A stretch of 64,000 bases of DNA from Alphaproteobacteria bacterium (GTDB lineage: Bacteria > Pseudomonadota > Alphaproteobacteria > Reyranellales > Reyranellaceae): NCBI GenBank assembly GCA_016870115.1, contig VGCH01000002.1, positions 124,001 through 188,000 on the forward strand, given 5' to 3'. Under the pieces are notes generated by a model. It was not told the origin of the DNA, did no database searches, and worked only from the letters and a program-made list of their open reading frames with translations. Numbering within the stretch: position 1 is the stretch's first letter; each line of letters begins with the position of its first letter. Shown piece after piece: positions 44,669 to 49,145 of the stretch. Both the position numbers and the translations under genes were made by a program.

Positions 44669-45862
44669 TCACACCCGGAACGGCGCGGGGACCAGCAAGT
44701 TCTCTGCGATCGGGTGCAGGCTCTTGTCGGCGTTGGCGAGACAGGCGCGCCGGCAGGCGTTGACCAGCGCCCCGGCGGCGGTGCCGCGCCAATACCACTC
44801 ATCGACCTGACGACTCGACGGGCGCGCGCCGGCACCGAGTGCGGCCTCGCCGTAGAAGGCGCGCAGATCGTCGGCGAAGAACTTGAGCGCCAGCACGGGC
44901 GGCATCGGCGGCGCCGGACTCGCGGGCACGTCGCCGGCCTCGAAGGCGGCGAGAAAGCGCGGCCAGGTCGCGGGCCCGCCGGGCAGGAGCCCGATCGTGG
45001 TGCGACCGCTCCGCAGCCTGTGCGCCTGCCAGGCGGGGCCGAGCTCCGCGACTTCGCGCGCGAAGGCGCCGGCGAACGGGCCCGCCGCCGGGTCGGCCGC
45101 GTGGGGCGGTGGCGACCAGCTCGGATCGTCGAGCCGGCCCGGCGCTTCCTCGGCGTGGTCGGCCAGGATCACCGGACCGTCGGTCCGCTCCAGGAGACCC
45201 AGCGCGGCGGTGAGCACGCGAGTCTGGAAGGCCGCATCGTCGGGCTCACCCAGCGGCCGGCCGAGCTGGAACGCAACGGCCAGAGCGCGCGGCGGGCAGA
45301 TCTTCTCGGCGTGAAGCCGGATCAGCGCAACGACCACCGTCGGCAGACCGCGACTCTCGAGCATGTGGGCCAGGGCGCTCACGGCGCGCGTGCAGAAGGG
45401 TCAAACCGGGACAAGCAAGGCGGCGTCGACGGCCTCCTGCCGACACTGGCCCGCGATCCGGTCGGCGGTCTCCTCCATTGCCTTGGGGTCGGTCGAACCC
45501 ATCACAGAATAGTGCGTCTCGGCGAGCCCGCCGATCGTGCCGGCCGATGCCATGTCGGCCAGCCGCCGCAGCGGGTAGACCGTGTCGAGGTCGCGCTGGA
45601 AGCCGCCGCGATCGTAGTTGATCGACACGTGGCTCATCACCAGATCGCCCGCGCCGAGCGTGGCGGGCAGCAGGCGAACCTCGGCCGAGCCGGGTCGGAA
45701 TGGGCTGTCTCCCCGGGGGTGCAGCGCCGCCGACGTCACCACCGCGACCTTGCGGCGCGCGAGCGGCGGGCCCGCGACGAACGGCGTCGCGGCGAAGGTC
45801 GGGCACTCGAGGTCGCGCAGGCGCTGCGCCGTCGCGGGTGGAAGGTCTTCGAGCCGGGCCAT
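44669..45862 (-). CDS. Probable selenoprotein: GrdB/PrdB-like reductase family with in-frame UGA (Sec154)
   Basis: A single reading frame runs from ATG 45862 to 44669, broken only by TGA at 45401-45403. Before it comes the family N-terminal half (RRKVAVVTSAALHPRGDSPF, VMSHVSINYDRGGFQRDLDT, AGTIGGLAETHYSVMGSTD, DAALLVPV). After it, still in frame, comes PFCTRAVSALAHMLESRGLP. The TGA thus occupies the first position of a U-P-F-C motif (residues 154-157), where glycine/sarcosine/betaine/D-proline reductase selenoprotein B relatives carry Sec or Cys. Read through, the protein is 397 residues, including a conserved C-terminal half (GRPLGEPDDAAFQTRV). A candidate stem-loop follows the UGA. It lies seven bases after DUF1289 and is probably in the phaR operon. 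The substrate is unknown. Confidence 0.82.
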
Positions 45863-45869
45863 GTGTCCC

Positions 45870-46052
45870 CTACAGTTTGCGTTGCGGCAGCAACTCCAGC
45901 ACGGCGCGGCGCTGGTCGTCATCCATGATCGACCAGCGGCCGATCTCGTCGATGGTGCGGCGGCAGCCCAGACACAGGTTGCTGCGCGGGTCGAGTTTGC
46001 AGACGCCGATGCAGGGCGAGATCACGCGCGCGCCCGGCTCGGGCTTGCTCAC
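45870..46052 (-). CDS. DUF1289 family cysteine-cluster protein
   Basis: This 60-residue protein has Cys14, Cys18, Cys27 and Cys30 in SPCIGVCKL and LCLGCRRTIDEIGRWS, the DUF1289 signature, which suggests a bound metal or iron-sulfur cluster. Function is unknown. It begins nine bases after phaR and ends seven bases before the selenoprotein candidate, so the three appear to be one operon. Confidence 0.88.
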   Translation of the reverse strand: MSKPEPGARVISPCIGVCKLDPRSNLCLGCRRTIDEIGRWSIMDDDQRRAVLELLPQRKL

Positions 46053-46061
46053 GCCAGCCTC

Positions 46062-46706
46062 TCAGCCCTTGGTGCGGACCAGGGACGCGAGCTGGCCCTG
46101 CAGCTCGTCGAGCTTGCGCTGCAGCTCATCGATCGCCTCGTCGTTTCGGGCGGCGGTCGGCGCGGTCGGCGGGGTCGGGGCCGCGGCGGGTGCTGTCGTG
46201 TTCGGCGGAGTCGTTCCCGGCGGTGGGGCGGCTCCCGGCCGGAACGGCGTGAACAGCCGCATGGCGTTCTCGAACATCGCCATGTTCTGCTTGCCCATCG
46301 ACTCGAACTGCTGGAACGGATTGAAGCCGAAGGCGTTCTGCAGGTAGCGGCGCATCTGGTCCTGGTTGCGCGAGAACTGCTGCATCGACATTTCGAGATA
46401 CTGCGGCACCACTCCCTGGAGGCTGTCGCCATAGAACGAGATCAGCTGGCGCAGGAATGAGATCGGCAGCAGGTGTTGGCCCTTGCCCTCTTCCTCGAAG
46501 ATGATCTGCGTCAGCACTGACCGCGTGATCTCTTCGCCGGTCTTGGCGTCGAACACGGCGAAGTCGGTCTTGTCCTTCACCATCTGCGCGAGATGGTCGA
46601 GCGTCACATAGGCGGAGGTCGCCGTGTTGTAGAGGCGCCGGTTGGCGTATTTCTTGATGACCACCGGTGGGACCCGGGTCGCGCCTTCGCTAGCCTGATC
46701 GGCCAT
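46062..46706 (-). CDS. phaR: Polyhydroxyalkanoate synthesis repressor PhaR
   Basis: This 214-residue protein has the PhaR DNA-binding domain KKYANRRLYNTATSAYVTLD, MVKDKTDFAVFDAKTGEEIT and LTQIIFEEE, then the PHB accumulation regulatory segments around LLPISFLRQLISFYGDSLQG. The Pro/Ala tail and a final short helix (LQRKLDELQGQLASL) are typical. PhaR binds PHA granules and represses phasin and PHA genes until granules form. It is divergent from the PHA-synthase-like pair. A plausible operator lies at the phaA start. Confidence 0.95.
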   Translation of the reverse strand: MADQASEGATRVPPVVIKKYANRRLYNTATSAYVTLDHLAQMVKDKTDFAVFDAKTGEEITRSVLTQIIFEEEGKGQHLLPISFLRQLISFYGDSLQGVVPQYLEMSMQQFSRNQDQMRRYLQNAFGFNPFQQFESMGKQNMAMFENAMRLFTPFRPGAAPPPGTTPPNTTAPAAAPTPPTAPTAARNDEAIDELQRKLDELQGQLASLVRTKG

Positions 46707-46862
46707 CCCGCCTCGCTGTTGCCGCCCCGCGCGCGGGTAAACGGCCGTTCATGGACTGACGGCAACCTTACCGCTGATACCGCAGTGCGGCAAGAAGCCC
46801 CTCGCGGCTGCGAAAGAGCGTGTTGAGCGCGCGCCGCACGCGCGCCGCGCTATAGTGCGGCC

Positions 46863-47201
46863 ATGACCGCCGATCGCGACGACCAAAACGCCGAGTTCGA
46901 CCGTCTGGCTCGGCGCTATCTCGATCTCTGGAGCGGACAGCTCGGGGGTCTGGCCGGCGACCGTGCGCTCACCGACCAGATCGCCCGGCTTCTCGCGGTC
47001 GCGAACGCCCAGGTCGCGAGCCTGATGCCGAGTGCCCCGCCCCCCGCCGCCGGAGCGTCCCATGATCCCGCCGCCGCGTCTCGGACCTCGCCCACTTCCC
47101 CTGCATCTGGGGACGGCGCTGTCGGGCTGGACGAGCTGCGAAGCCGCCTGGCCGCTCTTGAGGCGCGAGTCCGCGCACTCGAAGGCGGGCGAGGGGGCTG
47201 A
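46863..47201 (+). CDS. Small protein preceding the PHA-synthase-like gene, C-terminal coiled coil
   Basis: This 112-residue protein starts EFDRLARRYLDLWSGQLGGL, which resembles N-terminal parts of small proteins encoded beside PHA synthases, passes through an Ala/Pro linker, and ends with the heptad-like LDELRSRLAALEARVRALEG. Its last 140 bases overlap the next gene in another frame. Its position and coiled coil suggest an accessory or granule-associated partner, perhaps PhaE-like, but this is inference. Confidence 0.6.
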   Translation: MTADRDDQNAEFDRLARRYLDLWSGQLGGLAGDRALTDQIARLLAVANAQVASLMPSAPPPAAGASHDPAAASRTSPTSPASGDGAVGLDELRSRLAALEARVRALEGGRGG

Positions 47202-48330
47202 TCCTTTCGCCGCTCTGCTCGCGGAGATCGATGCGGTCGCGCGGGGCGCGCCCACCGGTACCTTCGAGAGGGCGCTGAAGCGCGAGATCGCACGGCGCAT
47301 GGACCGGCTGGCTGCCGGCGTTCTCGCCTATCGCCAGCACAAGGTGCGGCGCACGCTCGCGGAGCCACCGGTCGTCTGGAGCGAGGGCGGCACGCGGCTG
47401 CTGGACTACGGCGCCACCGATCGATCGGCGCGTCGGCGCGGCGCGCGCGCCGTGCTCGTTGTGCCCTCGCTCATCAATCGCTGGCAGGTGCTCGATCTCG
47501 CGCCCGGGAAGAGCCTGCTGCGTGCCATGGCTGCGTCGGGGCTGCGGCCCTACCTCGTCGACTGGGGCGATCCCGGAGCGATCGAACGCGGCTACGACGC
47601 GGCCGGCTATGTCGGTCGCTTGGAGCGCGCCCTCAGTTTCGTTGCCCGTCGCGCGCGGCGGGCGCCCGCCGTCATGGGCTACTGCATGGGTGGCACGCTG
47701 GCCGTCGGGCTGGCGGCCCGCCGACCGCGCGGCGTCGCGGCCCTCGCTCTCCTCGCTGCACCTTGGGACTTCCACGCGGATCGCACCGGACAGGCGTTTC
47801 TCGTTTCTTCGGGGCCGCTGCTTGCGCGTCTCGCGCAACAGCTGGGCGAATTGCCGCTCGATGTGCTGAACACGCTCTTCTGGTCGCTCGATCCCTGGCT
47901 TGCGGAGAAGAAGTTCGCGCGCTTCGCCGGCATGGATCCGGAAAGCGACGCGGCACGCGATTTCGTGCTGCTCGAGGACTGGCTGAACGAAGGTCCCGCG
48001 CTCGCTGGTCCGACCGCGCGCGACTGCCTGATCGATTGGTACGGCGCCAACCTGCCCGGCGCGGGCGATTGGACCGTCGCGAAGACCCGCGTGACACCGG
48101 CGAAACTCAAGATGCCGGCACTGGTGCTGATCCCCTCGGGCGATCGCATCGTGCCGCCAGGATCCGCGGCCGCGCTGACCGAGCCCGGTCGCGGCCTCGC
48201 CAACGCCACCCGGCGTGACTTGCCGCTCGGCCATATCGGCATGGTCGTGAGCGGCCGCGCCCGCGATCTCTGCTGGGAGCCGCTGATCGCGTGGCTGCAG
48301 GAGAATCCGGTGCGACGGGCGCGCGCATGA
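47062..48330 (+). CDS. PHA synthase (PhaC)-like alpha/beta hydrolase
   Basis: This 422-residue protein has the lipase-like box GYCMGGTLAVG with the nucleophilic Cys typical of PHA synthases in place of Ser, VVPSLINRWQVLDLAPGKSL, YLVDWGDPGAIERGY, and the Asp/His region LIPSGDRIVPPGSA and LPLGHIGMVVSG. It would polymerise hydroxyacyl-CoA into PHA; class III-like or a divergent PhaC relative are both possible. The N-terminus RLGPRPLPLHLGTALSGW is conserved in relatives as I recall, supporting the ATG at 47062 despite the overlap. The following LytTR gene overlaps its stop by ATGA. Confidence 0.8.
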   Translation: MIPPPRLGPRPLPLHLGTALSGWTSCEAAWPLLRRESAHSKAGEGADPFAALLAEIDAVARGAPTGTFERALKREIARRMDRLAAGVLAYRQHKVRRTLAEPPVVWSEGGTRLLDYGATDRSARRRGARAVLVVPSLINRWQVLDLAPGKSLLRAMAASGLRPYLVDWGDPGAIERGYDAAGYVGRLERALSFVARRARRAPAVMGYCMGGTLAVGLAARRPRGVAALALLAAPWDFHADRTGQAFLVSSGPLLARLAQQLGELPLDVLNTLFWSLDPWLAEKKFARFAGMDPESDAARDFVLLEDWLNEGPALAGPTARDCLIDWYGANLPGAGDWTVAKTRVTPAKLKMPALVLIPSGDRIVPPGSAAALTEPGRGLANATRRDLPLGHIGMVVSGRARDLCWEPLIAWLQENPVRRARA

Positions 48331-49145
48331 CTCTTTCCGACCGCTTCGACTGGCGACACGTTGCGGTATGGACCGGGCTGCTCGCGATCTCGCTGTTCGC
48401 GCATACCCAAACCGAGGTGGCGAACGCGGCGCATCGCGGCGCCGATGTGACCTGGTCCCGTCACTTTACGTTGGAGCTGACGAGCCACCTGGTCGTGGGC
48501 GCACTCCTGCCGGCGATCTATCTCCTGCATCGGCGTTGGCCACTCGCGGGCGGCTGGCGGCACCTCGCTCTCCATGCGGCCGCGATGCTGCCATTCACGC
48601 TGTTGCACACGCTCGGCATGGCGGCGCTGCGATTGCTCTGGTTCAACGCCGTATTGGGCGAGGCCTACAGCTTTCCCGTCACTCTTGGGCGACTTGGCTA
48701 CGAGTTCGCCAAGGACATCGTGAACTACGGTATGCTCTCGGCCGGCGTGATGGCGATGCGCCATGTCTTCGCGCGCGCGGCGGCGGTTGCCCCCGCGCCG
48801 TCGGCGGCACGCCCGGAGCGCTTCGCCGTCCGGCGGCGCGACCGCGAGATCATGGTCGAGGTGGCCGACATCGACTGGATCGAGGCCGCCGGCAACTATG
48901 CGATCCTGCATGTCGGCGGCGAGCGGCTGGAGATCCGCTCCTCGCTCTCGCGGCTCGAAACTGAACTCGACCCCACGCGCTTCGTTCGGGTCCACAAGTC
49001 ACATCTGGTGAATGTGACGCGCGTGGTCGAAGTCACCCCCTGGATGAGTGGTGACTGGCGGATCAAGCTCAAGGACGGCGCCGAGCTGAACCTCAGCCGC
49101 CGCTACCGGGCGCGATTCGAGGCGGCCGTGCCCGTTCGGTCCTGA
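48327..49145 (+). CDS. Membrane-bound LytTR-family transcriptional regulator
   Basis: This 272-residue protein has four hydrophobic helices in the first 145 residues (VAVWTGLLAISLFAH, HLVVGALLPAIYLLH, LHAAAMLPFTLLHTLGMA, IVNYGMLSAGVMAM). A C-terminal LytTR DNA-binding domain follows (about 165-262; WIEAAGNYAILHVGGERLEI, RFVRVHKSHLVNVTRVVEV, LNLSRRYRARFE). It lacks a receiver domain, so membrane sensing is likely. It is coupled to the upstream gene by ATGA and is followed by an acyltransferase gene, with three 21-bp-phased repeats in the gap that look like its binding sites. Confidence 0.88.
   Translation: MTLSDRFDWRHVAVWTGLLAISLFAHTQTEVANAAHRGADVTWSRHFTLELTSHLVVGALLPAIYLLHRRWPLAGGWRHLALHAAAMLPFTLLHTLGMAALRLLWFNAVLGEAYSFPVTLGRLGYEFAKDIVNYGMLSAGVMAMRHVFARAAAVAPAPSAARPERFAVRRRDREIMVEVADIDWIEAAGNYAILHVGGERLEIRSSLSRLETELDPTRFVRVHKSHLVNVTRVVEVTPWMSGDWRIKLKDGAELNLSRRYRARFEAAVPVRS

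Follow-up and report, generated by a model that had tools for sequence, protein, structure and literature searches.

A conserved 140-nt dual-coding overlap between a small coiled-coil protein gene and a PHA-synthase-like gene in Alphaproteobacteria

Known class III PHA synthases need a PhaE partner, which is encoded upstream of the synthase. In one Rhizobium pair, phaE directly precedes phaC, and the two genes lie 3 nt apart with no overlap. PhaM and the phasins are activators and coats of PHA granules. Same-strand genes nested out of frame are represented by Rz/Rz1 of phage lambda, whose products partner in one complex, and by rnpA/rpmH of Thermus. For overlaps between co-directional bacterial genes, a survey of 338 genomes published in 2008 reports that none longer than 60 nt is real, such cases being annotation errors, and that the longest real one is holD-rimI, at up to 56 nt (PMC2478687). 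A later study of overlap length excluded overlaps longer than 59 nt because of this annotation-error finding (PMC3887535).

The window analyzed here, 64,000 nt of a contig from an alphaproteobacterium of the family Reyranellaceae, contains a much longer overlap. On the forward strand, a small ORF (46863–47201, ATG at 46863 to TGA at 47201, 112 aa) shares 140 nt (47062–47201) with a PHA-synthase-like ORF (47062–48330, ATG at 47062 to TGA at 48330, 422 aa), whose frame is shifted by +1 base relative to that of the small ORF in the sequence of the window. A first-pass annotation had pointed out this 140-bp overlap and called it rare; the ORF coordinates bear out the former, and the latter agrees with the published survey (PMC2478687). 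Within the shared DNA, positions 47083–47109 (+) encode the GPRPLPLHL motif of the synthase, and positions 47115–47189 (+) encode the C-terminal coil of the small protein (residues 85–109). Like holD-rimI, the pair is co-directional and out of frame, with both protein ends conserved. In contrast to holD-rimI, which overlaps by 32–56 nt within Enterobacteria (PMC2478687), the present overlap is 140 nt long in the window and recurs in loci from across a class. Rz/Rz1 and rnpA/rpmH also represent same-strand, out-of-frame dual coding, but they are fully nested and occur in a phage or in the single genus Thermus, whereas here two chromosomal metabolic genes overlap at their ends across a class.

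The synthase is best read as an alphaproteobacterial, class-III-like PHA synthase with predicted catalytic activity. Its best-matching family is class III PhaC (TIGR01836, E 2.3e-41), with class I far behind (2.7e-16), and at 142 bits it fails the curated TIGR01836 cutoff of 365.3. The protein has the alpha/beta hydrolase fold with Cys-Asp-His; it carries the catalytic motifs GYCMGG, SGDRIVPP and GHIGM, and C208, D361 and H391, which we take to be the catalytic Cys-Asp-His, are invariant in an alignment of 13 diverse rows. A profile of its relatives aligns with a Rhizobium class III PhaC over 306 columns (hhalign, E 2.5e-35). The AlphaFold2 model has a mean pLDDT of 82.9, with residues 38–44 poorly ordered (pLDDT < 50), and its top Foldseek matches are PhaC structures. 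The locus thus resembles the class III PhaE-PhaC system in having a PhaC-type core with Cys-Asp-His motifs and a candidate partner gene directly upstream, in the order of the Rhizobium pair. It differs from this one Rhizobium case in that the genes overlap, and from class III in general in that the synthase falls below the family cutoff and has an extra N-terminal segment. In Rhodospirillum rubrum, PhaC2 (Rru_A2413) is the main synthase, according to two reports (PMC4026134, PMC9999600).

The synthase was found at E up to 1e-30 in 70/75 genomes of its own family, and 181 of the 387 genomes of the class contain a match; these 181 fall into 59 family groups by our own count. In a sample of the phylum, matches at E up to 1e-60 come from 19/299 genomes, all of them members of the same class. 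From the 181 matching genomes, we selected 74 loci, consisting of the 24 best-scoring ones outside Reyranellaceae and 50 picked by hand at about one per family; many loci come from metagenome-assembled genomes. In 62 of the 74, located by profile and by the GPRP anchor, the small frame extends at least 60 nt past the GPRPLPLHL motif, and one relative frame is retained throughout the sampled Alphaproteobacteria. The distance from the G codon of GPRP to the stop of the small ORF is a minimum length for the overlap, wherever the synthase is taken to start; in the 62 loci this distance is 107–227 nt (median 161). Two further loci (L182, L187) show an overlap by eye and lack the motif, and 10/74 have no overlap. 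The coil appears to be dispensable in places, since four of the 62 overlap-keeping loci (L122, L123, L164, L191) have none that is recognizable.

Several loci show how the arrangement can be reduced. In L204 and L205 the small protein is shortened to its N-terminal domain and ends at the synthase start. In all three full-length f11 loci that were read closely (L206, L208, L209), which we call sphingomonad-type, the taxon name being a guess, neither the small ORF nor the segment of the synthase under the coil is present; their synthases still have GPRPLPLFL, with no overlapping ORF. These three loci amount to a natural experiment on the role of the segment under the coil. In a tree of the synthase core, rows with the overlap occur throughout, and 13 changes among three states are counted. 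This pattern suggests that the overlap is old and has been lost repeatedly. However, the backbone of the tree is weak, with 38/92 inner branches open and no overlap in its deepest row, L184, which makes any reading of the age of the overlap and of the direction of change provisional.

Near the overlap, the synthase frame offers four possible start codons of the ATG, GTG or TTG type, namely GTG 47032, ATG 47062, TTG 47158 and ATG 47299, with a stop at 47023 upstream of the first. A Shine-Dalgarno-like GGAG (47052–47055, +) lies inside the small ORF, 6 nt before ATG 47062. A match of at least 4 nt at this site is present in 55/60 Reyranellaceae (best in-frame ATG), compared with 9% of 1800 control positions; support across the class is weaker, the nearest ATG having such a match in 35% of 57 loci against 9% of controls. 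The same DNA also encodes a conserved QGASHA stretch in the linker of the small protein. The N-terminal motif is itself conserved: P9, R10, P11, L12 and H15 are invariant across the 13 diverse rows, and over the GPRPLPLHL block the synthase identity among 59 class loci is 0.71, compared with a null of 0.31 if the small frame were the sole constraint, in line with the conservation that the first-pass annotation had seen in RLGPRPLPLHL. The synthase therefore begins at or near ATG 47062, within the small gene, and not downstream of 47201.

It could still be argued that the shared stretch codes only for the small protein and that the true synthase start lies downstream. Most long co-directional overlaps in databases are indeed mis-called starts, according to the survey (PMC2478687), and the sphingomonad-type relatives lack the segment that follows GPRPLPLFL. 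Yet these same relatives keep GPRPLPLFL where no overlapping ORF could impose it, and the excess identity of the motif block, its invariant residues and the conserved Shine-Dalgarno site and ATG all speak for translation from within the small gene. We consider a downstream start next to negligible. Orthologues keep the same two ends of an overlap longer than 60 nt, at the small-gene end in the 62/74 class loci and at the synthase end, with its Shine-Dalgarno site and ATG, in the 55/60 relatives, as expected of a real co-directional overlap.

Selection on the two frames was measured in two samples. The Reyranellaceae statistics use 60 of 63 selected loci, with L084, L086 and L103 left out because they lacked the motif or had an interrupted frame. 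The class statistics use the 62 overlap-keeping loci minus three near-duplicates above 85%; the four coil-less rows were not removed on that account before the analysis. Synonymous-site constraint was examined in the Reyranellaceae, as the first-pass annotation had proposed for orthologues. For the synthase frame, the identity of synonymous codons reaches 0.71 in the overlap, where 0.41 is expected (28 columns), and 0.64 downstream, where 0.46 is expected (277 columns), with a column-permutation p of 0.0009. The part of the small ORF that precedes the overlap varies like coding sequence, with differences at codon positions 1/2/3 of 0.149/0.074/0.394 among the 60 relatives.

A two-sided null was obtained for the 59 class loci by resampling the synonymous codons of one frame and measuring the identity of the other. 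In the coil block, the small-frame identity is 0.45 against a null of 0.19, and the maximum of 500 resamplings is 0.22. The synthase identity there is 0.34 against 0.24, and in the GPRPLPLHL block the small-frame identity is 0.33 against 0.27. These nulls ignore phylogeny, and relatedness is controlled by downstream windows only: the best coil window has a small-frame excess of 0.289, whereas 336 downstream windows have a mean of 0.039 (sd 0.021) and a maximum of 0.099. The openness of the small frame was rejected as evidence; about 60% of synonymously resampled synthase sequences also stay open, so an open frame proves little.

This chance openness, together with a linker block in which small-frame identity is only just above its null, might suggest that the small frame is a by-product of synthase codon usage, or of an RNA element at the start site, and that the coil is unselected. 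We regard this explanation as very unlikely, since the coil block lies above all 500 resamplings and all 336 downstream windows, the invariant Arg, Glu and Leu positions in 41 diverse proteins track the small frame, and the small ORF is coding outside the overlap as well. Conservation in either frame goes further than the other frame would force, and both are under selection. From the ORF coordinates, the synonymous constraint, the two-sided resampling and the downstream windows, we conclude that the conserved overlap at 47062–47201 is beyond chance and is genuine co-directional dual coding.

The two frames are, however, not equally constrained at every base, and the constraint is largely divided between them. 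The GPRPLPLHL motif of the synthase lies over the Ala/Pro linker of the small protein, and the coil, which shows the strongest small-frame constraint, lies over a more tolerant segment of the synthase. The earlier description of both frames as meaningful therefore holds in that each exceeds its null, but the critical elements stand mostly side by side and are not superimposed. In a typical class member, the synthase segment under the coil reads AALPLLKSGSLPWKP, and the other frame of the same DNA reads RIAALEERLAALE. In the window, the synthase segment, to which the poorly ordered residues 38–44 of the model belong, has drifted to AAWPLLRRESAHSKA and the coil is retained; conversely, the Minwuia-type loci L095, L119, L122 and L123 retain the synthase segment and have lost the coil. 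Such an overlap is viable when the critical element of one protein is placed over a tolerant stretch of the other. We propose that it persists because shortening either protein would remove a needed element, namely the coil from the small protein or the N-terminal motif from the synthase.

The signals before the two starts differ. A −10-like element, TATAGT (46851–46856, +), ends 6 nt before ATG 46863 of the small ORF. A TATA sequence no more than 16 nt from the ATG of the small ORF occurs in 57/60 relatives and 36/54 class loci, and in 0/900 control windows, and a Shine-Dalgarno-like site before the small ORF is absent in 58/60 relatives and 49/54 class loci. The TATA box just before the ATG and the near absence of a Shine-Dalgarno site suggest a leaderless transcript for the small ORF, which would begin at the ATG and depend on the TATAGT box. 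Initiation of the synthase would be separate, at its own internal Shine-Dalgarno site. Backward re-initiation over 140 nt is unlikely. One mRNA would then yield both proteins, in a ratio set by the two different starts. The tight coupling of the two products noted earlier is plausible, but these presumed modes of initiation could equally uncouple them.

Programmed frameshifting by which ribosomes leave the small frame for that of the synthase and make a fusion protein appears extremely unlikely. The frames are one base apart, and L186 might contain an in-frame fusion, a weak indication (E 0.007, Z = 1); against this, the start codon of the synthase is conserved and has a Shine-Dalgarno site of its own, and the spacing before the motif is variable. 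In L186, from an AT-rich genome, a hairpin-like stretch at about 860–1060 in gene orientation is possibly fused to the synthase; as a case of small protein–synthase fusion, it was set aside as too weak (profile match E 0.0072, Z = 1).

The neighborhood points to PHA metabolism. The gene of the PHA synthesis repressor PhaR (46062–46706, −; TIGR01848 E 9.4e-44, above the cutoff) lies divergently upstream of the small ORF. Between them is a conserved box, CCGCAGTGCGGCAAG (46780–46794), which is a candidate regulator site; its overlapping 9-mers, in TGCGACAAG/CGCAGTGCG variants, recur in 47–52 of 60 relatives. On the reverse strand the box reads CTTGYCGCACTGCGG, and it may be a PhaR site. Three of three Azospirillum records (NZ_CP007797, NZ_CP032343 and NZ_CP022366; L192, L195 and L196), all plasmids, show, in this order, phaR, an unannotated small ORF, the synthase, labeled just "alpha/beta fold hydrolase", an acetyl-CoA acetyltransferase and phbB, in a phbCAB-type operon. 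The PLSDB table, which describes itself as incomplete, has no feature at the position of the small ORF in 7/7 matching Azospirillum plasmids. In the window, a LytTR-domain regulator (48327–49145) starts inside the synthase stop codon, through a 4-nt ATGA overlap. Near phaR, a PrdB/GRDB-like ORF (45401–45922, −) matches TIGR04483 at E 8e-14, far below the cutoff.

The small protein consists of an N-terminal helical hairpin, LARRYLDLWQDQL, a low-confidence Ala/Pro linker and the C-terminal coil. Its AlphaFold2 model (mean pLDDT 82.1) has helices at residues 3–31 and 34–54, which form the hairpin, and at 85–109. In an alignment of 41 diverse proteins, R95, E100, R102 and E107 are nearly invariant, and the C-terminus is among the best-conserved parts of the protein, so the conserved coil described in the first-pass annotation is confirmed and a poorly conserved C-terminus is not what is seen. 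Apart from generic coils, the protein has no match among the families of Pfam or NCBIfam, whether searched alone or as 41 diverse members, and its model has no PDB fold match at E up to 10. The protein of the window gives no match to a PhaE model at E up to 1 in Pfam or NCBIfam, and PhaE is not found among the 25 families shown per library for the 41 members. Identification as PhaE by profile was also unsupported, with an hhalign probability of 0.9% against one PhaE. Since homology to PhaE is undetectable, and in this the protein differs from PhaE, we do not file it under that name.

We estimate a probability of about 0.65 for the reading that this is a genuine, old dual-coding overlap of one PHA operon, in which the small protein serves the synthase as a partner subunit and each protein has its own start. 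On comparative grounds, the likeliest role of the small protein is that of an undescribed partner subunit of the alphaproteobacterial class-III-like PHA synthase, because of the PHB operon context and because the synthase is of class III type, with relatives that need PhaE. The hairpin may be the core element, and the C-terminal coil may mediate self-association or binding to the synthase. That the arrangement is kept across much of Alphaproteobacteria likewise suggests that the small protein partners the synthase. We also count the joint loss of the small gene and the synthase segment in the f11 loci as support for the partnership.

Alternatively, both frames code, and the small protein is a granule or DNA-binding adaptor of the PhaM/phasin type, or a regulator acting with PhaR. 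The small gene adjoins phaR, and like PhaM and the phasins, the protein is small, helical and linked to PHA; in many of its class relatives the coil is followed by a tail rich in Lys and Arg, a feature also of PhaM and PhaF. The small protein of the window, however, has no basic tail, no PhaM or phasin family is found among the matches listed, and, unlike those proteins, the small gene stays beside the synthase in a fixed overlapping frame and disappears together with the synthase segment in the f11 loci. We therefore consider such a role unlikely, though it deserves consideration. A further step from the partner-subunit reading, that PHA synthases with this overlooked small subunit form a distinct two-subunit type in Alphaproteobacteria, marked by a single frame kept across the class and by leaderless and internal Shine-Dalgarno starts on one mRNA, is put forward tentatively and falls somewhat short of an even chance.

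A description of this overlap between a small ORF and a PHA synthase gene was not found in the open-licence literature, which does not prove that it is unpublished. The small subunit would have been overlooked because its gene overlaps phaC. An overlap of 140 nt whose relative frame is the same in most of the families sampled from the class is a direct counter-example to the 60-nt limit. For PHA research, it means that a partner protein is apparently missing from the gene tables, and such synthases, when expressed alone, may therefore have been judged as half an enzyme.
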